Positions 6,142 through 23,598 of a DNA stretch of 64,000 nt are shown in pieces. Each line of letters begins with the position of its first letter. The stretch's first letter is position 1. Origin of the DNA: Marinobacter panjinensis (lineage in GTDB: Bacteria > Pseudomonadota > Gammaproteobacteria > Pseudomonadales > Oleiphilaceae). The stretch is from the NCBI RefSeq assembly GCF_005298175.1, contig NZ_SZYH01000001.1, forward strand, positions 2,542,001 to 2,606,000. Reading direction: 5' to 3'. A program made the position numbers and the translations under genes. The notes beneath the pieces are model-generated. The model was not told the DNA's origin, ran no database searches, and saw only the letters and a list, made by a program, of their open reading frames with translations.

Positions 6142-6817
6142 GCCGACCTCCCCCTGCCCCAACGCCGGACACCAGCCTGCCCTGCTCCAGCGTGAGCGTG
6201 CGGCGCCCGAGATCGTTGATCAGAGCAATATCGTGGGTGGCAATCAGTACCGTGACTCCTACCTGGCTGAACTCCGCAAACAGCCGCATGATGTCGGCAG
6301 ACAGTTCCGGGTCCAGGTTACCCGTGGGCTCATCCGCCAGCAGCACCGGCGGCTTGTTCACCACCGCCCGGGCAATGCCTACCCGCTGCTGCTCACCACC
6401 GGAAAGCTGCAACGGGTTCATCTTTTCCTTGCTCAGCAGACCGACCTTGTCCAGCGCAGCCCGAACGCGCCGGCCAATATCACGGGCGGGCGTACCCATC
6501 ACTTCCAGGGGCATGGCGACGTTATCGAACACGGTGCGGTCAAACAGTAGCTGGTGATTCTGGAATACCACCCCGATGTGGCGGCGGATATAGGGCACCT
6601 GGCGGCGCGGCAGCGTATTGAGCACCTGGCCACCCACAATCACTTCACCGGCACTGGGGCGCTCCATCACCATGATCAGCTTGAGCAGGGTACTTTTACC
6701 GGCACCGGAGTGACCGGTGAGAAACGCCAGCTCACCACGCTCCAAACCGAAATTGACCTGACGCAGCGCAGTATGGTCGCTGTCGTAGCGTTTGGTGACC
6801 TGGCGGAACTCGATCAT
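6134..6817 (-). CDS. ftsE: Cell division ATP-binding protein FtsE
   Basis: ATPase of the FtsEX complex, 227 residues. It has Walker A GHSGAGKSTLLKL, the Q-loop in VVFQNHQLL, the ABC signature LSGGEQQRVGIARA, Walker B PVLLADEPTGNLD, and the switch His in LIATHD. It sits six bases downstream of ftsY and overlaps ftsX, so the three genes form one operon. The length and every motif are standard. Confidence 0.97.
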   Translation of the reverse strand: MIEFRQVTKRYDSDHTALRQVNFGLERGELAFLTGHSGAGKSTLLKLIMVMERPSAGEVIVGGQVLNTLPRRQVPYIRRHIGVVFQNHQLLFDRTVFDNVAMPLEVMGTPARDIGRRVRAALDKVGLLSKEKMNPLQLSGGEQQRVGIARAVVNKPPVLLADEPTGNLDPELSADIMRLFAEFSQVGVTVLIATHDIALINDLGRRTLTLEQGRLVSGVGAGGGRHG

Positions 6818-6823
6818 CGCGGG

Positions 6824-8035
6824 TTACTTCTCTGGGCTTTCATCGAACAGCGCATCCACAAACGTGCGGGCATCGAAGCTGCGCAGGTCGTCCACCTGCT
6901 CACCCACACCAATGTAGCGGATGGGCAACTGCAACTGCCGGGCGATGGCGAACACAATACCACCCTTGGCAGTGCCGTCCAGTTTGGTCAGGGTAATACC
7001 GCTCACGCCCACCGCCTGCTGGAAAACCTGGGCCTGGCTGAGGGCGTTCTGGCCGGTGCCGGCGTCCAGCACCAGCATGACTTCGTGGGGTGCAGTGTCG
7101 TCCAGCTTCTTGATCACCCGCACGACCTTTTCCAGCTCGCTCATCAGATTGTCTTTGTTCTGCAACCGGCCAGCGGTATCGGCAATCACCACATCCACAC
7201 CGCGGGACTGTGCCGACTGGACCGCATCGAAGATGACCGAAGCGCTGTCGGCACCGGTATGCTGTGCCACCACCGGTACATTGTTGCGGTCGCCCCATAC
7301 CTGCAACTGCTCAACCGCAGCCGCCCGGAACGTATCCCCCGCCGCCAGCATTACCGACTTGCCATCGCGCTGGAACAGTTTGGTGAGCTTGCCAATGGTG
7401 GTGGTTTTGCCCACACCATTCACACCCACCATCAGGATCACATAGGGTTTTTTCCCGGTATCGATCTCCAGGGGTCTGGTGACATCCGCCAGCAGACCGT
7501 GAAGTTCATCCCTCAGGGCTTTGCGCAGGGCTTCGCCGTCCTTGAGCTGGTTGCGCTCAAGCTTGTCGGTCAGCGACTCGATGATTTCCGAGGTAGCGGT
7601 AACGCCCACATCTGCCATCAGCAGCGTGGTTTCAATTTCCTCCAGCAGGTCCTCATCCACCTTCTTGCCGACAGAGAACAGGTCGGCAAGGCCGCCGGTC
7701 AGGTTGGCCCGGGTTTTACCCAGACCCTGGCGGATGCGCTCAAAAACGCTGACCTGTGGGGCTTCGGGTTCCGGTTCAGGCGCTGCCGGAATCTCCGCAG
7801 GCGGTTCCTCGACAACAACAGCTTCTTCAGGTGCTTCGACAGCCGGTACACTATCAGCCTCTGCTTTTTCCTCCGCCCCTGCCTTGGGGGTGGCACCTTC
7901 CGGGGCTTCCGGTTTTTTCTGGGGCACCGGCTTCGGCCGTGGCACGCGCCGACGGTTGGCCGCCACATCCAGAACAAACACAAGGACAAGAAGGGCCAGA
8001 AGGCCGATAGCAATCCACTCTGCCGTCATAGTCAT
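6824..8035 (-). CDS. ftsY: Signal recognition particle receptor FtsY
   Basis: GTPase that docks ribosome-SRP complexes at the inner membrane. The 403-residue protein starts with a hydrophobic stretch (IAIGLLALLVLVFVLDVAA), followed by a Pro/Glu/Ala-rich acidic A region to about residue 100 and then the NG domain. GTPase motifs: GVNGVGKTTTIGKL, DTFRAAAVEQL, DTAGR and TKLDGTAKGG. It is the first gene of the ftsYEX operon and is divergent from rsmD, with a 161-base gap between their starts. That gap should contain both promoters, but I could not pick them confidently. Confidence 0.97.
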   Translation of the reverse strand: MTMTAEWIAIGLLALLVLVFVLDVAANRRRVPRPKPVPQKKPEAPEGATPKAGAEEKAEADSVPAVEAPEEAVVVEEPPAEIPAAPEPEPEAPQVSVFERIRQGLGKTRANLTGGLADLFSVGKKVDEDLLEEIETTLLMADVGVTATSEIIESLTDKLERNQLKDGEALRKALRDELHGLLADVTRPLEIDTGKKPYVILMVGVNGVGKTTTIGKLTKLFQRDGKSVMLAAGDTFRAAAVEQLQVWGDRNNVPVVAQHTGADSASVIFDAVQSAQSRGVDVVIADTAGRLQNKDNLMSELEKVVRVIKKLDDTAPHEVMLVLDAGTGQNALSQAQVFQQAVGVSGITLTKLDGTAKGGIVFAIARQLQLPIRYIGVGEQVDDLRSFDARTFVDALFDESPEK

Positions 8036-8945: not shown

Positions 8946-10124
8946 TTAGGGAGAGGGCCGCAAAGAATAAGCCCGCAAATGCGCCGCAAAATCCTCCAGG
9001 TACCGAATACCACTGGCCTCCGCCTCCCGGCACCACTGCATCAAAGCCTGAAGCTTCTCCTGCGGCTTCAGCCCACGGCGACGCCACAGCTCCTGCAATT
9101 CATGGCTCTTCTCATAAATCTGACGCAGCGTCGCATTGCGCTCCAGCACAGTGTCCAGGTGCTCCTTCTCCTTCGGCTTGATCAACGTCACCTCACGGGA
9201 CAGCAAGCGCTTCAGACTGCGGTAACGGGGACGAATTTCCTCATCCATCAGCGCCTTCTGCTGGCGCAACACCGGCTCCATCACCCGCTTACGGTACTGG
9301 CGCATAATGTCGAACCGGCTGTTGGTAATCGCCTGCACGGTTTCAACATCCACTTCCTGCTTACCGGGAACATAATGTGCAATCGGCCTGAAGCCCTTGG
9401 GTTTTGCCAGCCCGAAGAACTGGAACAGGCGAATGTAACCCCAACCGATATCCACTTCATACCAGCGACGGGAAAGCTTGGACGAATTGGGATAGGTATG
9501 GTGATTGTTGTGCAGCTCTTCGCCACCAATCAGGATTCCCCACGGCGAAATATTGCGGGCGTTGTCCGCACATTCAAAATTGCGATACCCCATGAAGTGG
9601 CCGATGCCGTTGACTACACCTGCGGCCCACACCGGAATCCACATCATCTGCACCGCCCAGATCCAGATGCCGTGAACACCGAACAGCAACAGGTCGATAA
9701 CGGCCATCAACTGAATGCCCAGCATGCGGTAGCGACTGTATACCCTGTTCTCCACCCAGTCTTCCGGGGTGCGCTGGCCGTAACGCTCGAGAGTTTCCGG
9801 AGTGCCGGCCTCGTCGTACAACTCAGCCCCTTCAAAAAGCACCTTGCGAATACCCAGAACCACAGGGCTGTGAGGATCTTCCTCGGTTTCGCACTTGGCA
9901 TGGTGCTTACGATGGATAGCCGTCCACTGTTTGGTGTTCTGCGCTGTGGTCAGCCATAGCCAGAAACGGAAGAAATGCGCCAGCACCGGATGCAGATCCA
10001 GTGAGTTATGGGCAGAATGGCGATGCAGGTAAAGCGTCACGCTGATAATGGTGATGTGGGTAAGACCCAGCGTAACCAGAATCAGCTGCATCACCGAAAG
10101 GTCCAGAAGACCGTTGTACCACAT
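8946..10124 (-). CDS. Acyl-CoA/fatty acid desaturase
   Basis: Membrane di-iron desaturase of 392 residues that would introduce a double bond into fatty acyl chains. All three histidine boxes are visible: HRHSAH, HRKHH and HNNHH (in EELHNNHHTYPN). Hydrophobic segments lie between them. The C-terminal 130 residues are charged and helical, which is unusual in length for a bare desaturase. I set the start at ATG 10124, where MWYNGLLDL begins seven bases after GAGGAAA; a longer frame upstream lacks hydrophobic or conserved character. The gene is divergent from mutM. Substrate and double-bond position cannot be read from sequence; a delta-9 type is likely. Confidence 0.87.
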   Translation of the reverse strand: MWYNGLLDLSVMQLILVTLGLTHITIISVTLYLHRHSAHNSLDLHPVLAHFFRFWLWLTTAQNTKQWTAIHRKHHAKCETEEDPHSPVVLGIRKVLFEGAELYDEAGTPETLERYGQRTPEDWVENRVYSRYRMLGIQLMAVIDLLLFGVHGIWIWAVQMMWIPVWAAGVVNGIGHFMGYRNFECADNARNISPWGILIGGEELHNNHHTYPNSSKLSRRWYEVDIGWGYIRLFQFFGLAKPKGFRPIAHYVPGKQEVDVETVQAITNSRFDIMRQYRKRVMEPVLRQQKALMDEEIRPRYRSLKRLLSREVTLIKPKEKEHLDTVLERNATLRQIYEKSHELQELWRRRGLKPQEKLQALMQWCREAEASGIRYLEDFAAHLRAYSLRPSP

Positions 10125-15817: not shown

Positions 15818-15827
15818 TCCGGCACAA

Positions 15828-15905
15828 CTCTAACAATTCACGTCAGTACGCGGCCATTGGCCGCCGGACGCCCCTGACGGGCCGCCGCTGCGCTCCGCGT
15901 TATAT
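15828..15905 (+). other. attC-like site (integron cassette recombination site candidate)
   Basis: A 78-base element begins with CTCTAACAATTC, close to the attC inverse core RYYYAAC, and ends with GCGTTATAT, close to the core GTTRRRY; each core deviates at one position. The interior is GC-rich and self-complementary (GCGGCCATTGGCCGC; CGTCAG with CTGACG). It starts 11 bases after one small gene stop and ends 26 bases before the next small gene start, the spacing expected between cassettes. No integrase gene is in the window. Confidence 0.5.
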
Positions 15906-15931
15906 TTCTTAAACCTCAATCAAGGAAGATC

Positions 15932-16140
15932 ATGAGAATATCGACATTAGCCCTAATCGTTCTCTGCCTATTCATGGGCTTCACTTTTTGGGTTATGGAA
16001 GGCGCAGAGTAGTCGCTTTTGGCTTTTGGTACCCAACTCATGTCGAGCCCAGACACTGCTCAGGTCGTCATTGATCTCTATATTCTTGCCGCGCTGGCTT
16101 GTGTTTGGATGTACCAGGACGCCAAAAGCCGCGGCAGTAC
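15932..16140 (+). pseudogene. DUF2834-like small membrane protein, interrupted and truncated
   Basis: From ATG 15932 (AAGGA five bases upstream) the frame reads a membrane helix, ALIVLCLFMGFTFW, then meets TAG at 16010-16012. The same frame continues past the stop through GTQLMSSPDTAQVVIDLY and CVWMYQDAKSRGSTG, which resembles the second half of DUF2834-type proteins. The third hydrophobic segment expected after KSRG is missing, because the sequence passes into the end of the efflux-pump gene on the other strand. So the gene is broken twice: an in-frame stop and a lost 3' end. Alternatively the 26-residue peptide is a gene of its own. The family assignment is from remembered pattern. Confidence 0.5.
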
Positions 16141-16167: not shown

Positions 16168-17559
16168 TCAGGGCGATTTTGCGGCTGCAACAGGCGCGCC
16201 TGGGAGCCATAGGCTCATGAGGGCGGACAGCGCAATGGCAACGGTAAACAGCCGGATCATGACGTCGTGGCGCGCCACGCTGACGATTTGATCGTGTCCC
16301 AGGACCGCGCCGAGAACCAGTATACTCAGAATGCCGCCCAGATAACGCATCGTGGAACTGACCCCGGCTGCCATTCCAACCTGTCCAGGCTCCACGGCGC
16401 TCATCGAGGCTGACTGTGCAGGCGCGTTGCACAAGCCAAGGCCCAACCCAGACACCAGCAGGGCTGGCATCGCGCCCTGCGGGGACTCAAACGAACCCAG
16501 ACCCCATAGCTGACCAACGCCTGACAGCAGCAACACACTTCCCAAAAGCGCCGCACTCCGTGCGCCGATCCGGTCGGTCAGTTGTCCACCCAATGGCGCG
16601 GCAACGACCATGCCTATCATCATGACGAAGAGCATGTAGCCAATGTCGCGTGGCTCCGTCACGCGGAATACGGAAAAGAATTGCGGTAACTGAAACAGCA
16701 AACCATACATCGCAAAGTTCTGCAGAGCGATTATCAGCGTTCCCGCAGCAAAGGGGGACAGGGAAAACAGGTGCGGATCAAAGACCGGTGCTGAGGTTTT
16801 CGACTCCCATTTGACGAAGGCTGCTCCGGCAACGGCCGCCGCCAGAACCACGGCCATGAACACAGTGCCTTCAACTTTGCTGGCCACGATCAGCAACGCC
16901 AGTGACAGCGCCAGCAGCCCGATGCCCATAAAATCCAGCGATCTTGTCAGCTTTCTCAGCGGGCGCTGTGCCGCTGTGTTTTCCGCAGGCAGGGGATACC
17001 GATGCAGCAGAAGCGCGGAGACGGCCAGAAAGGGCACATTGGCAACAAAAACAGCACGCCAGCCAAAAAGGCTCACGATCTCGCCACCCAGGACGGGGCC
17101 GCAGGCTGCGGCAATTGCCATCGTAGCGCCAAACAGGCCAAAGATACGGCCACGTCGCTCTGGGGGCACATGCAGGCGCAACAGGGCGAGGGTTGCCGGA
17201 ACCACCAGGGCACCGGCTACCGCCATCAGGCAGCGCGAGAGAAACAGGAAGCTCAAATCCTGCGCCAGGACCCCGAAAGCCGCGCCGATCAAATAAAGGC
17301 CAATACCTGTCCACAGGATGCGCGAATGCCCGACGACATCGCTTATCTTTCCCGCCGGCCCCAGGCAAACCACGTTGACAACCAGATAACCGGTGACCAG
17401 CAGGCCCGTGATCAAAACGAGATCCGCACTGATTCCGAGGCTGATGGACGGCAGCGCCACGGCGATCAGTGTCGAACCCAGTGGCGCCTGGGCCGACGCC
17501 ATCAGCAGGCCCGCCGTACTCGCGGCAGTCATTCGGATGGCAGCGTTGTTGGCGCTCAA
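16168..17559 (-). CDS. MFS efflux transporter, DHA2 (EmrB/QacA-like) family
   Basis: Proton-driven drug exporter candidate of 463 residues with about 14 predicted membrane helices. Family marks include GPAGKISDVVGHSRIL in the loop between helices 2 and 3, the RCLMAVAGALVVPATLALL segment, and GPVLGGEIVSLFGWRAVF (motif C region). The start is probably TTG at 17559 with GGGA eight bases upstream; an ATG nine codons later is possible. It lies 21 bases downstream of the ATP-grasp subunit gene, so it is the last gene of a three-gene operon with the split dikinase. Pairing a modifying phosphotransferase with a pump suggests detoxification or product export; this is inference. Confidence 0.85.
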   Translation of the reverse strand: MSANNAAIRMTAASTAGLLMASAQAPLGSTLIAVALPSISLGISADLVLITGLLVTGYLVVNVVCLGPAGKISDVVGHSRILWTGIGLYLIGAAFGVLAQDLSFLFLSRCLMAVAGALVVPATLALLRLHVPPERRGRIFGLFGATMAIAAACGPVLGGEIVSLFGWRAVFVANVPFLAVSALLLHRYPLPAENTAAQRPLRKLTRSLDFMGIGLLALSLALLIVASKVEGTVFMAVVLAAAVAGAAFVKWESKTSAPVFDPHLFSLSPFAAGTLIIALQNFAMYGLLFQLPQFFSVFRVTEPRDIGYMLFVMMIGMVVAAPLGGQLTDRIGARSAALLGSVLLLSGVGQLWGLGSFESPQGAMPALLVSGLGLGLCNAPAQSASMSAVEPGQVGMAAGVSSTMRYLGGILSILVLGAVLGHDQIVSVARHDVMIRLFTVAIALSALMSLWLPGAPVAAAKSP

Positions 17560-17580
17560 AGTGTCGTCCCGATGTTATCG

Positions 17581-18402
17581 TCAGGCCACAGCCGATTTCG
17601 TCACTGGGCGTAATTGCAGCAGGTAAAGTGTCTCGCGTTCAAATGCCCATTCGATATCATGGGGTCCGGTACCGAAAACACCCTCGCACTGCGTCACAAG
17701 CGTGTGTAGCGCAGCCAGCTTTTTCGCATCAAGGCAGAGTTGCTCGACAAGATGCGCGGCGACCGCTTCGGTGCGGGTCAGGCCTCCGGGCACACGCTGC
17801 ACACTGATGTCCTTGAAACCCGCGCAGCTTTCAAGGAGACATCCTGCGCGATCCATGCGATAGCTGTCGGGGATGACAAGACCCTGCACAACTGCTTCAC
17901 CCAGGCCCCACGAAGCCTCGACGACAAGTTCGTCTTGACCGGTCACGGGATTGCAGGTGAATAGCACGCCGGCCACATCGGCGGCGACAAGACTCTGGAT
18001 GACCACGCCCATGCGTATGGCCGTGTCCGCCCCGACGCGGTCTCGATACGCTCGGGCAGACTCCGTTCGCGCTGATTGCCAGACGACCAGAATCGCGTCC
18101 GAAATCGCCTCGAAACCCATGAGGTTGAGAACAGTCGCATGTTGTCCGGCGAAGCTCGCGCCCACCGAGTCTTCGCCGATGGCCGACGATCTGACAGCCA
18201 CCGGTCCGGGCATCTGCGCACATAGTCTGGCGAGTTCCGTTCGCGCACCGGCGTCGCCTGCCGCGATGGCATCGACGAACGCGGTATCGAGCGCGAAACC
18301 TCCGGGCACGGGCAGCCCGGCGCGCAGCGCTGCACCGAGTTGCGTGGCTTTGCCGCCGTACACCGACTCATCGCAGGCCGAGGCCAACGGACACGGTTTC
18401 AC
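17581..18402 (-). CDS. PEP synthase-like ATP-binding subunit (PPDK_N domain alone)
   Basis: Stand-alone nucleotide-binding half of a PEP-synthase-family dikinase, 273 residues. Family motifs are intact: GGKATQLGAALRAGLPVPGG at the N-terminus, VAVRSSAIGEDSVGASFAGQ, VLFTCNPVTG, WGLGEAVVQG, and the closing DIEW...LYLLQLRPVT. There is no phospho-His domain in this protein; it is supplied by the upstream gene, which overlaps by four bases (GTGA, with GTG at 18402 as start). It should use ATP to phosphorylate the partner's histidine, releasing AMP and phosphate. It is shorter than the usual domain of about 350 residues. The layout matches the beta subunit of phenylphosphate synthase. Confidence 0.85.
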   Translation of the reverse strand: MKPCPLASACDESVYGGKATQLGAALRAGLPVPGGFALDTAFVDAIAAGDAGARTELARLCAQMPGPVAVRSSAIGEDSVGASFAGQHATVLNLMGFEAISDAILVVWQSARTESARAYRDRVGADTAIRMGVVIQSLVAADVAGVLFTCNPVTGQDELVVEASWGLGEAVVQGLVIPDSYRMDRAGCLLESCAGFKDISVQRVPGGLTRTEAVAAHLVEQLCLDAKKLAALHTLVTQCEGVFGTGPHDIEWAFERETLYLLQLRPVTKSAVA

Positions 18403-20045
18403 GGTGAGTCGATCCGGACTTCGCCTGTCGTTCCGTCCACTGTCACACGGGTTCCGTCTGCGATCTGCGCCGTGGCGATACGAGTCCCGACAACGGAGGG
18501 AATGCCATATTCGCGTCCCACGATGGCGGCGTGTGACAGCAAACCGCCCGCATTCGTGACGATGGCCCCCAGCAGAGGAAGCACGATGTTGAAGGAATCT
18601 GTGGTCGCTGCCGTGACCAGCACGTCACCACGTTCGAGACGGCCCAGGTCATCCGGCCCGTCGATGACACGTGCGATGCCGCTGTAGGTTCCGGGGCTTG
18701 CGCCGATTCCCCTGATGACGGCGCTGTCGCGATTACTTTGAACGTTGGCCCCAAGGGATTGAATGGCCGTCCCCAGGGCGGTCATCACCCGTCTCACCTG
18801 GGGTGGCAAACCGTCCATCGGAGGGGGCGGCGAAGCGGGATCGCCAAGTTCCGCAGGCGCTGTGTCGACGCGATGCCCTTTGCGATAGGAGGCGCGCGCC
18901 GCAAGCTCGGCCCCGCTCGGGCCACCCTGTCGGCCGAGAAGGGCCTGGATCTCGTCGTAACTTGCCTCGATAAGATGCGCTGCCTCTTCGATCAGGCCAT
19001 CTGCGGCAAGTCTCGCGCCGGCGGAAAGCAGCGCGCGGCGCATGACACCGCCCGCCCAGACGTCGCTGTAAAATCCGCGTTCGTCACGCAGCCGCGACAC
19101 CAGACGCACCTCGTCAAGAAGTTCATCGAAATCGGCACGGTGTTCTGCTGGAATCTTTTCCCGCAGTCTGGACACGTCTGCTTCGGCAACAGCCTCAGCC
19201 TGAGCCGCGCTCTGTTCGACGGCCATCCTGATCCGGGCGACGAGCGCGTCGGGCACTTCGATAGCCGAGGGCTCGCCGGTATCAAGACTGTTAAGCAGTC
19301 GGTCACCGACCACGCCAAGATAGTCTCTGGCTGCTTCACCCAGAGGTCCTGGGGCATCGCGGAGCTGGGCAAGGATATCCGCACTCGCCTTTCCGGATTC
19401 CAGGATTTGACGGGCATCCGGGCTGTTGCGTATTTCCTCGGCCAGTCGATCCATCTCTGGAAAGGTCCCGGCGGATTCCGGTGCCGATCCACGCGTCAGG
19501 GCCAGAAACTCGCCGATGGGAGCGTCCGTCCAAGCGCCGACATGGGCCATGAAATCACCGACTGGAAGAATCGCTGCCAAATTGAAACTGTGATGTTGAT
19601 GAATCATCCGTTCCAGGTTGTCCCGGCATTGTTCGATATAAGCGATCAACTCATCGTCGGACAAAGCCAGCGGGTCCACGGCAAGTAGCTCTTTATGCGT
19701 TCTGATCGAGGCGGGTTTCACATCGCGGTCCCAGCGCTCCAGATCCTCTCTCCAGATTTTTTTGCGGAACACATCTTCGGCGGCTCTGAAGCGCGCCGGA
19801 ATTTCCGCCTCGGGCGCCGGTACGACGGTGACGTAGGCAAAACCGTTTATAAACCGGTAGTCGAGAGTATCGATCAGCAACCCGTAGCGGCGCGCGCAGT
19901 CCAGAAAACCCTTGGTGATGCCTTGCGGGTGGATCTCGGCCTGAAAACGAGAGACTGGTCGCGGGAAATGAGCCGCGTCAACGGTCCATGATCCTGGGCC
20001 AGGTGCTTCAAATACTGATGCGGCGGATGAAGTTGTTGTGTTCAT
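18399..20045 (-). CDS. PEP synthase-like phospho-histidine/substrate subunit
   Basis: Protein of 548 residues with the PEP-utilising mobile domain at its C-terminus: GDVLVTAATTDSFNIVLPLL, then GGLLSHAAIVGREYGIP, with phospho-acceptor His505. The first 400 residues are helical and charged, with no ATP-grasp motifs, and in position correspond to the substrate-binding region of rifampin phosphotransferase or the alpha subunit of phenylphosphate synthase. The C-terminal PEP/pyruvate-binding barrel of true PEP synthase is absent, so the phosphoryl group probably goes to another small molecule. ATG 20045 has AGGA nine bases upstream, better than the ATG at 20063. It is first in the operon with the ATP-binding subunit and the efflux pump. 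The substrate is unknown. Confidence 0.8.
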   Translation of the reverse strand: MNTTTSSAASVFEAPGPGSWTVDAAHFPRPVSRFQAEIHPQGITKGFLDCARRYGLLIDTLDYRFINGFAYVTVVPAPEAEIPARFRAAEDVFRKKIWREDLERWDRDVKPASIRTHKELLAVDPLALSDDELIAYIEQCRDNLERMIHQHHSFNLAAILPVGDFMAHVGAWTDAPIGEFLALTRGSAPESAGTFPEMDRLAEEIRNSPDARQILESGKASADILAQLRDAPGPLGEAARDYLGVVGDRLLNSLDTGEPSAIEVPDALVARIRMAVEQSAAQAEAVAEADVSRLREKIPAEHRADFDELLDEVRLVSRLRDERGFYSDVWAGGVMRRALLSAGARLAADGLIEEAAHLIEASYDEIQALLGRQGGPSGAELAARASYRKGHRVDTAPAELGDPASPPPPMDGLPPQVRRVMTALGTAIQSLGANVQSNRDSAVIRGIGASPGTYSGIARVIDGPDDLGRLERGDVLVTAATTDSFNIVLPLLGAIVTNAGGLLSHAAIVGREYGIPSVVGTRIATAQIADGTRVTVDGTTGEVRIDSP

Positions 20046-20459
20046 GGTTTTATGTCCTGGCATGAATTTACGATTGTGACGTGTCCCTGTTAATCAATAG
20101 GACAGGCCAGCCTTCGCCCGGCCGGTGCATTTCTGCCCGAGGGAAGTCGATTGATCGCCATTAATACAAAAATAGACCCAGCCTAGGTTTCGAACAAGAA
20201 AATGATTGCTTGAGAGGTGGACTTATTCCGGCCCACTAGACACTCCCCGTTATTTCCCTATGTTTGTTCATGGGCTTTACCTTTTGGGGCATGGTGGGCG
20301 CGAATATGAAGCCAAAGTCAGCAAGCGCTCGAATTCTTCATAGGTAGCTAAGCTTTTGGCTTGACAAAATCAGAGAGTTATCCGAAAAATTTCGCGCTTG
20401 ATAAGACTGTTGAACGAGCATGCTGTCCAATACTTGTCAGGTCGCCAGGAGTAATTGCC
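20046..20459. other. Divergent intergenic region with gene relic
   Basis: This 414-base stretch separates the dikinase operon start from the hydratase start. It should hold the promoters for both directions, but I could not fix either. It contains the truncated coding relic annotated at 20249-20347. No intact gene, tRNA or convincing hairpin was seen. Confidence 0.5.
20249..20347 (+). pseudogene. Truncated relic resembling the 15932 small membrane gene
   Basis: The frame reads VISLCLFMGFTFWGMVGA, nearly identical to ALIVLCLFMGFTFWVMEGA at the 15932 locus. The nucleotide match covers TTCATGGGCTT and flanking bases (15968-16006 against 20264-20302). Here there is no start codon, an in-frame TAG lies a few codons upstream, and the sequence diverges after the helix. 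It is a non-functional fragment of the same family, on the other side of the dikinase-efflux operon. Confidence 0.6.
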
Positions 20460-21281
20460 ATGCTCGCTGCTCCGGAACTTCAAGAAATCGCCTTTCAGAT
20501 ACGAGCCGCACAGATCGAAGTGCAACAGATCGAGCCATTTACTTCGCGTATACCCGCATTTGACCTGCCGTCGGCCTACGCTGTGGCTCAACTCAATCAT
20601 AATGCTCGCTTGTCGGAGGGCGCCGTGCCCGTAGGCCGAAAAATCGGCTTTACGAACCCCGACATGTGGGCCATCTATGGTGTCCAAGAGCCGATCTGGG
20701 CCTACGTATACGATCAGACGGTCACCCGCTTGCCGATGACCGGTGGCACTTGCAGTGTCGGCAGGTTTACCGAGCCGATGATTGAGCCTGAGATTGTCTT
20801 CCACTTTCGCTCGGCGCCACCTGTCGGCGCTGACCTCTCCGCGCTACTTGCGTCCATTGACTGGGTCGCTCACGCCTTCGAGATAGTACAGTCCCACTAC
20901 CCGGGCTGGAAATTTCAGGCTGCAGACACCGTCGCCGATTGTTCATTGCACGGCACGCTGCTGCTGGGCAAACCAGTGCCCATCGACCAACTCGCTTCCG
21001 ATCCAGTTGCCGCTCTCGAATCGTTCTCCGTCGAGCTTTCATGCAACGGGGAAGTTCGGGAGGTCGGTAATGGCGCCAACGTGCTGGGTAGCCCGCTGAT
21101 GGCTTTGGTGCACTTAATTCAGGTGCTTTCAAAGCAGCCGGAATGTTTGCCACTGCAAGCCAATGAGATCGTAACGACTGGCACCATCACAACGGCTCAG
21201 GCCGTTCGGTCCGGCGAGTCATGGCAAACGAAGGTACAAGGTATCGCGCTGCCGAACCTTGCTGTGGACTTTCTTCCGTGA
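20460..21281 (+). CDS. 2-oxopent-4-enoate hydratase / oxalocrotonate decarboxylase family protein
   Basis: Enzyme of the MhpD/DmpE/DmpH group within the fumarylacetoacetase-like fold, 273 residues. These enzymes act on 2-oxo-4-enoic acids made by meta-cleavage of catechols. Visible marks are GRKIGFTNPDMW, the metal-binding EPMIEPEIVFHF, a central His (WVAHAFEIV), DCSLHGTLLLG, and the terminal GSPLMALVHLIQ. The start is ATG 20460 with AGGAG eight bases upstream; the longer open frame lacks family similarity. No ring-cleavage dioxygenase, aldolase or dehydrogenase is nearby, so it is an orphan from such a pathway or acts on another keto acid. It is divergent from the dikinase operon. Confidence 0.8.
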   Translation: MLAAPELQEIAFQIRAAQIEVQQIEPFTSRIPAFDLPSAYAVAQLNHNARLSEGAVPVGRKIGFTNPDMWAIYGVQEPIWAYVYDQTVTRLPMTGGTCSVGRFTEPMIEPEIVFHFRSAPPVGADLSALLASIDWVAHAFEIVQSHYPGWKFQAADTVADCSLHGTLLLGKPVPIDQLASDPVAALESFSVELSCNGEVREVGNGANVLGSPLMALVHLIQVLSKQPECLPLQANEIVTTGTITTAQAVRSGESWQTKVQGIALPNLAVDFLP

Positions 21282-21483
21282 AGACGCCGCGACGCTGGAC
21301 TAAACGCTCCTGGCCTATTGTCAGCTTATTTGACGGCTGTAACGACCTTTAAGGGTACGTGGTGTCAGATACGCTTACACGTTATAAGAGGTGCGCCATC
21401 AGCCTGTTGATTGTAAAGCCAGTTTTATATGGCTCGAACATTGCTTCGATGACCCTGGCAATCTCATTTGCAAGGAGCTGACT

Positions 21484-22062
21484 ATGAAAAACTTATGGTT
21501 GATGTTTGTCATGGCATTCTTGGTGCTGCCCGGCTGGGCGAGCGCAACATTGATTGGTGATCAAGTGCTCATCGAGCAAAACAGGACGACCCTTGGAACG
21601 TTTCGGGACGACTTGGTAACCGTGGGCGCTGGCGTCGAGTTGAGCTGCCCCGGCGCCTTCGAGTTGTGCGAAGCCAATATCCCGGGTGACTCACAGGGCT
21701 CGATTGATATTGGGGCTTCGTCAATACTGTTTAACCTCGGCAGTATCATTGCTGCAGCGTTCGAAAGTGATATCTTTAACGGATACATTTTCTCGGATCT
21801 CGACTGGACCGATGGGCCCGGAGCCATTACCGGCGTCAGTCTTGTCACCGACGTGGACGGGCTGATTGCATCGCGGATCAGCTTTGGCAGCGACTTTGTG
21901 GCCGTGAATTTCGAGTCGCTGTTGCTGGATGAAGACGATACCTTCTTCGAACTCACTCTGACCCACTCCGTTTCCGTTCCCGAACCCGGTACCCTGGGGC
22001 TGTTGGTAGCCGGTTTGCTAGGCTTCCTCGCGAAAAGTCTGTCCAGAAGGCACCGTTCCTGA
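21484..22062 (+). CDS. PEP-CTERM sorted surface protein
   Basis: Exported protein of 192 residues. An N-terminal signal peptide (KNLWLMFVMAFLVLPGWASA) is followed by an acidic, Asp/Ser-rich body with beta-like repeats, and then the tripartite sorting tail: VPEPGTLGLLVAGLLGFLAK and a basic end SRRHRS. The PEP motif, helix and Arg cluster are the recognised exosortase signal. ATG 21484 is preceded by AAGGAG at six bases; an open frame extends upstream but has no signal-peptide character. Two Cys residues lie about ten apart in the body. No exosortase gene is in the window, so it must be sorted by one encoded elsewhere, or the gene is an orphan. Confidence 0.85.
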   Translation: MKNLWLMFVMAFLVLPGWASATLIGDQVLIEQNRTTLGTFRDDLVTVGAGVELSCPGAFELCEANIPGDSQGSIDIGASSILFNLGSIIAAAFESDIFNGYIFSDLDWTDGPGAITGVSLVTDVDGLIASRISFGSDFVAVNFESLLLDEDDTFFELTLTHSVSVPEPGTLGLLVAGLLGFLAKSLSRRHRS

Positions 22063-22101: not shown

Positions 22102-23391
22102 CTACGCTCCACCGGCCTCCGTCAGAAAGGCGGCCCCGAGAGGCGCCCGTGAGTCAGTCTCGCCTGCAAGATCAGGCTTCCCGAGCGTTGCCAATTCTGA
22201 CGTTTTCATTGCCTTTCTCATCAACATCCGGCTATTACGACCCGAATCCGGAAAACAACTCTGGCCGGCTCTCCAGTTCAGCATCACGCTGGTTGCTTCA
22301 GTTCGCGCAGGAAGGTTGCGAAGACGCTCGTACATAGCTTCATGCTGGCGATGGGCAGCGTTATCAACAACCACTACAAACGCACTGGGTGAATAACGGG
22401 CAAGATAGCTGCCTTCATCAATGACCTTGATGACCTCATTGGCGGCCGCTGTCATGGCCCCTTCAGCCTGCTCGCCTGGGATATCCCGGTAATTGGCGAC
22501 CTCCAGATAAATCACAGCAAAAGCATTTTCATCAGGCTCACTTCTCGCCAGCTCCATAACCATGTGGTTGGCCAGGCTGGCGCGGTTTGGTAGCCCAGTG
22601 GTCGCATCATAAAGCGCCTTGCGCTCAATACGTTCAGATTGTTCCTGAGCCAGAAACGCTGCGTTGCGACGATGTTTGACGTCGGTGCCGGACACAACCA
22701 GAGCCACAAAGATAAGTGCTCCGCTAACCAGCGCAAGAGGGGTGCCCAACCAATCACCTGACAACAGGTTGTCTGCGGCAGGCAGGGCATTCTCGGGATA
22801 TATCATCGCTGCCATGCCGGTGTAGTGCATACCACAGATGGCCACGCCCATGATCAGTGCTGCCCCAAACTGAAAGGCAATCCCTTTGAATCCCTGAACC
22901 GACTGCAGGCTACGGCAAATCAGCAATGCGACTGCAGAAGCACCAAGCGCGATTATCAGGGAAGCCGCGAACAGCAAAGGGTCGTAGGTCATGCCGGGAT
23001 TCATCTGCATCGCTGCCATACCGACATAGTGCATGGTAGCAATGCCGCCCCCCATAAAGAGGCTGCCGATGATGATGTGTACCGCTCCCGCCCGCTTGTT
23101 ACCAATGATGTACAAGGCGAGGCCCGAGGTGCCCACGGCGGCTAACCAGGAAGCAACGGTAATGGCAAGGTCGTAACTCATTTCCATTGGCATCACGTAG
23201 GCCTGCATGCCGACGAAATGCATTACCCATACGCCGCTTCCCATCGACAAAGCGCCGAGCAGCAGCCAGACTCGCGCTTTTATCCGCTCGAGTGACGCAA
23301 GCTGAGCACCAAAATATAACGCGCTGTAAGAGGCAAGAACTGCCACGACATAAGACGCGGCCACCAAGGTGAAATCGTATTGTTCAGTCAT
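22102..23391 (-). CDS. MHYT membrane sensor with degenerate GGDEF domain
   Basis: Protein of 429 residues. The N-terminal half has seven membrane helices and three copies of the MHYT signature (MHFVGM, MHYVGM, MHYTGM), proposed in this family to bind a metal that senses O2, CO or NO. The cytoplasmic half begins like a diguanylate cyclase (ALYDATTGLPNRASLANHM), but the catalytic GGDEF position reads SPSAF in ARYSPSAFVVVVDN, so cyclase activity is unlikely. There is no EAL domain. It may act as a c-di-GMP or protein-binding sensor. The start is ATG 23391; an upstream in-frame GTG at 23418 is less likely. It converges on the PEP-CTERM gene. Confidence 0.85.
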   Translation of the reverse strand: MTEQYDFTLVAASYVVAVLASYSALYFGAQLASLERIKARVWLLLGALSMGSGVWVMHFVGMQAYVMPMEMSYDLAITVASWLAAVGTSGLALYIIGNKRAGAVHIIIGSLFMGGGIATMHYVGMAAMQMNPGMTYDPLLFAASLIIALGASAVALLICRSLQSVQGFKGIAFQFGAALIMGVAICGMHYTGMAAMIYPENALPAADNLLSGDWLGTPLALVSGALIFVALVVSGTDVKHRRNAAFLAQEQSERIERKALYDATTGLPNRASLANHMVMELARSEPDENAFAVIYLEVANYRDIPGEQAEGAMTAAANEVIKVIDEGSYLARYSPSAFVVVVDNAAHRQHEAMYERLRNLPARTEATSVMLNWRAGQSCFPDSGRNSRMLMRKAMKTSELATLGKPDLAGETDSRAPLGAAFLTEAGGA

Positions 23392-23598
23392 TTTGACACC
23401 CGTTTTCGTGAATACCACTTATGCACGGGATGTTTTCGTAAGGAGTGAAACATCCCGAAATGTGCAATCGATCACAAATACGGGGAGCTGGAGACTATTG
23501 ACTCATAATAACTGTAGCGTTTTGTAACATATGCAGGAAGGCTTTAGATTTTCAGCGGGGGAGATGCGCACTCGCAGAAAGCCTGGAGGCCTGGTGGT

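Follow-up and report, generated by a model that had tools for sequence, protein, structure and literature searches.

Introduction

HpeHI, CreHI and PpsAB have been described as a subfamily of two-component small-molecule dikinases, in which one subunit resembles the substrate and swivel domains of rifampin phosphotransferase (RPH) and the other resembles its ATP-grasp domain (PMC12167813, available text). According to the same text, these enzymes initiate catabolism, and phosphate trapping has been proposed for HpeHI. RPH itself is presented as a single chain in the order ATP-RIF-His, with a substrate domain and a C-terminal swivel domain (PMC4844700, available text). Here, a three-gene module is described from a stretch of 64,000 nucleotides (hereafter, the window) of the 4.42 Mb genome of Marinobacter panjinensis (contig NZ_SZYH01000001.1, positions 2,542,001 to 2,606,000). 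It encodes a split dikinase of this general kind and a transporter of the major facilitator superfamily (MFS), which we take to be of the DHA2 class. Two-component dikinases have been recognised only recently, and the members described so far start aromatic catabolism; the module links enzymes of this kind to a dedicated putative exporter.

Results

The module consists of three minus-strand open reading frames (ORFs) in the order His subunit (18399-20063), ATP subunit (17581-18402) and pump (16168-17559). The tight packing claimed in the original prediction, which had been made from the sequence of this locus, was confirmed, with a four-base overlap between the His and ATP genes and a gap of 21 bases between the ATP gene and the pump gene. 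Two candidate starts, ATG 20063 and the in-frame ATG 20045, were found for the His ORF; the latter, giving a protein of 548 aa, is the likelier one because the homologous upstream ATG in locus L024 is out of frame. The phospho-His had been placed at residue 505, which is correct in numbering from ATG 20045 (511 from ATG 20063).

The association of the pump with the kinase was found to be recurrent. The two adjoined each other in 6/6 proteobacterial loci read: M. caseinilyticus, M. vulgaris and Marinobacter sp. CHS3-4 have the order HIS-ATP-pump, the genes around it differing; Jannaschia has pump-HIS-ATP, and Boseongicola has pump-HIS at the end of its contig. In the Actinomycetota, 18 loci with a stand-alone His subunit were sampled from 22/396, 8/278 and 2/277 matching genomes; those set aside comprised 11 genomes carrying single-chain forms, two repeats and a partial contig (G961). 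An ATP subunit adjoined the His subunit in 13 of these 18 loci, and none was detected in L082-L086, for which 15-20 kb were fetched. A pump lay within 3 kb in six of the 18, all among the 13 with an ATP subunit, vs. 0.22 expected (P about 3e-8, if the loci are independent); this expectation is approximate, being based on how many similar pumps a genome holds, with pump matches cut at 1e-10 or 1e-15. The gene order was HIS-ATP-pump in G539, G1500 and G1567 and ATP-HIS-pump in G954 and G1260, and the pump was divergent from TetR-HIS-ATP in G1312.

The linkage was also checked starting from the pump. Among three well-matching pumps located away from known kinases, two had an ATP-HIS pair adjoining (L095 in G1011 and L096 in G1260) and one did not (L097 in G1046). 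At 387 aa, the L095 pump is short, and in its match to the window pump it was barely ahead of an unlinked pump. In every linked genome searched, the window pump had the linked pump or pumps as its top one or two matches, by this narrow margin in G1011. Furthermore, candidate pump starts overlap the kinase frame in L087 and L106. These results indicated that the link between pump and kinase is not due to chance, and the co-occurrence survey extended the pairing first noted in the window to other proteobacterial and to actinobacterial loci.

The pump (463 aa) gave Pfam matches to MFS_1 and MFS_2 (all three proteins were searched at E up to 1) and showed 14 hydropathy peaks, in agreement with the 14 helices predicted earlier. 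Its nearest solved proteins in the PDB are drug exporters, namely an antiseptic resistance protein, EmrB and EfpA. Of the 34 pumps placed in a tree, the 12 linked to kinases fell on one side of a branch (support 100/99), and the other 22 lay apart. These 22 were the next-best matches: 14 belong to genomes that also have a linked pump, and eight to genomes with a split kinase or a lone His subunit and no adjacent pump; L097 excepted, approximately 500 bases were read on either side of each. Six residues (Pro26, Arg128, Asn281, Tyr285, Gln382 and Tyr406) were common to the 11 linked pumps compared, and each was found in at most two of the 22 others. Asn281 and Tyr285 lie inside a predicted helix, and the remaining four lie near helix ends. 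At the position of Gly28, in the first transmembrane helix (TM1), Gly or Asn was present in 12/12 linked pumps and Asp in 15/21 others. The TM1 Asp matters for cationic drugs in QacA, and a pump that has lost it would be in keeping with a cargo that is neutral or anionic. The direction of transport, presumably export, is assigned from family membership. The AlphaFold models of the pump and the His subunit were poor, with a mean predicted local distance difference test score (pLDDT) of 41 and 55, respectively.

With regard to the kinase, PF00391 was located at residues 477-547 of the His subunit, i.e., at its C-terminus, and the catalytic motif TxxGGxxxH is retained. PF01326 matched residues 56-270 of the ATP subunit (273 aa). 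The ATP-grasp motifs are all present in it, as had been claimed, but its N lobe is compact, about 50 residues found in PpsB, CreI and HpeI being absent, likewise in the clade I ATP subunits compared (see below). No phosphoenolpyruvate (PEP)/pyruvate-binding barrel was found in either subunit at the same Pfam threshold. The Pfam profile search and the homology described below support a split dikinase of the RPH/phenylphosphate synthase type without the PEP barrel, as originally proposed. The pair is not the product of a recent PEP synthase fission, since the single-chain relatives form their own clade and the host genome carries a separate PEP-synthase-like gene (839-aa frame).

Reference pairs were taken from annotated plasmids of Azoarcus, Rhodococcus and Rhizobium. 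The Azoarcus pair (Pps) is accompanied by phenylphosphate carboxylase genes; the Rhodococcus pair, beside P450 and toluene monooxygenase genes, was read as the Cre type, and the Rhizobium pair, with biotin carboxylase and HAD genes, as the Hpe type. BLASTP identity of the window proteins to these references was 24-33% for the His subunit (over 255-276 columns in two of the three cases) and 30-36% for the ATP subunit, and the Pps reference is 43-48% identical to the other two; the row for the host's PEP synthase, whose translation was in a wrong frame, was left out of account. The NCBIfam models for such two-component dikinases are of the PRK08296 type. In the curated model NF006153 (cut-off 578 bits) the references scored 809, 747 and 772 bits and the window His protein 131, below the cut-off. 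When 15 relatives of the window protein (A6) were combined in a profile, it aligned across 516 columns with a profile built from five Pps/Cre/Hpe-type proteins, at E 2e-45 and 23% identity; with the Streptomyces RPH, the same profile aligned over 332 columns and its N-terminal third remained outside the match. The block HFPxP (HFPRP in the window) is common to the His subunit and the phenol kinases and absent from the Streptomyces RPH. Where the phenol kinases show ENH or EDH and RPH shows REYPK, the window protein has RDERG.

In a 37-row kinase tree, the window protein fell in a clade of 17 rows (clade I, 100/100). The five phenol-type rows formed a separate clade (100/100), as did six single-chain relatives (95/89) and four stand-alone actinobacterial His subunits (100/97). 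Clade II, with four rows (92/90), joined the phenol type at weak support (84/79). For the clade I locus L079, the pump was placed among those of clade II loci, suggestive of an exchange of partners. Given the low identity, the score below the cut-off, the clade of its own and the lack of aromatic-catabolism partner genes nearby, the window pair, as judged from these comparisons, is a separate subfamily and a distant relative of phenylphosphate synthase. Hence, the kinship with that enzyme noted originally stands, with its split into two subunits already described at subfamily level (PMC12167813), but only as a distant one (131 vs. 578 bits).

The distribution of the module is sparse: it was found in 4/124 genomes of the genus, in 1/398 genomes sampled from the phylum (the one that contains the window) and in 1/394 genomes of the Jannaschia family (Jannaschia itself). 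Synonymous divergence (dS) between the window and the Marinobacter copy L023 was 0.11-0.22 in the three module genes and 1.94 in ppsA, the PEP synthase gene of the two genomes and the one core gene used for comparison. When the window was compared with the other three Marinobacter copies, the ratio of non-synonymous to synonymous divergence (dN/dS) was 0.15-0.24, and against Jannaschia it was 0.11-0.15; thus these genes are not chance ORFs. The low dS of the module relative to ppsA, together with the low dN/dS, indicates that the Marinobacter module spread recently by horizontal transfer and is still under purifying selection. In L023, the module is bracketed by an exact 14-base inverted repeat (9629 and 14000), of which L024 keeps the right copy only, and is adjoined by fragments (8954-9645), one of them of a phage-type integrase. 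No relative was confirmed in a scan of viral contigs, and tblastn of phage records gave nine records, each covering no more than 21% of the query.

To find possible partner genes, 24 neighbourhoods (6 kb on each side where the contig allows, some of them near-duplicates) were searched by tblastn; the 14 queries were partner proteins encoded in the clusters of Azoarcus, Rhodococcus and Rhizobium. No carboxylase, UbiD, UbiX, CBS, biotin-carboxylase or HAD partner was found in them. Five clade I pairs (L029, L077, L078, L079 and L110) are each immediately preceded by a TetR gene, and regulators of the TetR type whose N-terminal motif is similar were also seen ahead of a single-chain relative (L089, 11434-12144) and a lone His subunit (L084, 8490-9122). 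A UDP-glycosyltransferase-like gene lies 3' of the L078 split dikinase (6686-7984), and O-methyltransferase genes overlap two single-chain relatives by four bases (L090, 1849-2925; L091, 6722-7651).

Upstream of the His gene, a region on the minus strand (20064-20294) is conserved in the alignment with other Marinobacter copies (L023 up to 20294) and is presumed to bear the promoter; the promoter scan gave three sites vs. 1.8 expected, none above chance. Two pieces of a small membrane-protein-like ORF (15971-16005 and 20267-20301; 35 bases, 83% identical) flank the module in the window, and a 131-base relative lies upstream of the module in L023 (9680-9810). Just 3' of the pump, a stretch resembling an integron attC site (15826-15910) was noted by features that we take to be typical of attC sites: its single-strand folding gave z -2.3, with 4/200 shuffles as good, and the core pattern alone was not above chance. 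The divergent gene at 20361-21281, of the 2-keto-4-pentenoate hydratase type (below curated cut-offs), was rejected as a part of the module, since the other Marinobacter loci match only the module and small flanking pieces. Further on, a PEP-CTERM protein gene (21391-22062) adjoins the gene of an MHYT-GGDEF protein (22102-23418).

Discussion

The reading preferred here, at about even chances, is that the module constitutes a horizontally spread phosphorylate-and-export system for detoxification of, i.e., resistance to, a hydroxylated and probably phenolic toxic compound. We infer the enzyme activity, the substrate class, the export direction and the role in resistance from the full-length homology to phenol kinases, the conserved motifs, the recurrent linkage and the single pump clade, as well as from the solved relatives of the pump being drug exporters, the lack of characteristic catabolic partners, the TetR and transferase neighbours and the low dS. 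Dikinases of this kind often act on hydroxyl groups. The ATP subunit would present ATP, and His505 of the large subunit would take the beta-phosphate, with release of AMP and phosphate (Pi). The phospho-His would then swivel to a cavity formed by the N-terminal domain of the same subunit, where the hydroxyl of the small compound would be phosphorylated, and the DHA2-type pump would expel the compound or its phosphorylated form.

Several observations weigh against such a system. There is no pump beside the kinase in 9/17 clade I rows, nor in any of the six fused relatives whose surroundings were read. Three generic catabolic-type matches (SDR, P450 and ALDH) were obtained near 3/24 modules, and a regulator was not observed in any of the marine modules. 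Moreover, the window pump scored 169 bits in TIGR00711 (EmrB), below the cut-off of 230 bits, yet this was its best NCBIfam match.

Split dikinases as such are already known. Among the open-licence literature matches listed, the titles and the beginnings of the abstracts described no dikinase with an exporter, and neither the present subfamily nor its exporter was seen there or in the available text of the two papers cited here; subscription papers were mostly outside this scope. The words "transporter", "MFS" and "export" do not occur in the available text of PMC12167813, nor do "efflux", "transporter" and "operon" in that of PMC4844700. If the proposed function is correct, a mobile mechanism of detoxification or resistance would be added that is hidden under the names "PEP-utilizing enzyme" and "MFS transporter", the pump signature would predict kinase neighbours, and the substrate could be tested with two purified proteins. 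A broader proposal, which must be regarded as tentative and on the doubtful side, is that these modules form a widespread mobile class in which the split dikinase turns a toxic hydroxylated compound into its phosphate ester, an anion, and a DHA2 clade dedicated to this task, without the usual TM1 Asp, exports that ester, conferring resistance. This would be a phosphate-conjugation counterpart of phase II/III detoxification.

Alternatively, the MFS protein could import a phenolic or hydroxylated nutrient, which the kinase would trap as its phosphate for catabolism. The related HpeHI, CreHI and PpsAB do start catabolism, and trapping was proposed for the first of them (PMC12167813, available text). 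Nevertheless, this scavenging role appears rather unlikely in view of the absence of carboxylase, UbiD, CBS, biotin-carboxylase and HAD partners within 6 kb of the 24 modules, the exporters among the nearest solved pump relatives and the TetR neighbours. It is distinctly less probable that the kinase makes a phosphorylated natural product, a signal or a protected precursor that the pump secretes. The relatives that score in NCBIfam include RedH and PigC, dikinase-like ligases that take their names from prodigiosin biosynthesis, and glycosyltransferase and O-methyltransferase genes adjoin some relatives; however, in Marinobacter the three genes move together with no biosynthetic gene among them.

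The kinase and the pump might also be independent genes brought together by hitch-hiking on a mobile element, a possibility that the horizontal spread in Marinobacter and the nine clade I rows without a pump would accommodate. It is considered improbable, since the association occurs in several gene orders in two phyla with one pump clade (100/99), two kinase pairs were found starting from the pump, and candidate pump starts overlap the kinase frame in two loci. Finally, a split RPH with a rifamycin pump was rejected as very improbable: the best solved relatives of the His subunit by sequence are Listeria RPH and the Arg-acid pair of the RPH active site (Arg666-Glu667-Lys670) is kept, with the Lys position differing in the alignments and the N-terminal Gln positions, among the rifamycin-contact residues, aligned at low confidence, but the window pair scored 97 and 166 bits in NF041857 (RPH cut-off 999 bits), its N-terminal third lies outside the RPH match, and HFPxP is shared with the phenol kinases and not with the Streptomyces RPH.

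The module shares traits with several known systems. Unlike PEP synthase and pyruvate phosphate dikinase, the window pair has no detectable PEP/pyruvate-binding barrel. It shares with RPH the substrate domain, the C-terminal swivel domain and the ATP-grasp homology, but it is formed by two chains and the N-terminal part of its substrate domain has no significant RPH match. As in PpsAB, CreHI and HpeHI, the His/substrate and ATP-grasp parts are encoded by separate adjacent genes, and the His subunit is homologous over its full length, including the catalytic His motif and HFPxP; in contrast to them, the module has a linked putative exporter, a shorter ATP subunit and no catabolic partners. The pump resembles DHA2 exporters in its 14 predicted helices and its best solved-structure matches, and differs from them in its own clade, the replacement of the TM1 Asp by Gly or Asn, its specific set of residues and its score below the TIGR00711 cut-off.

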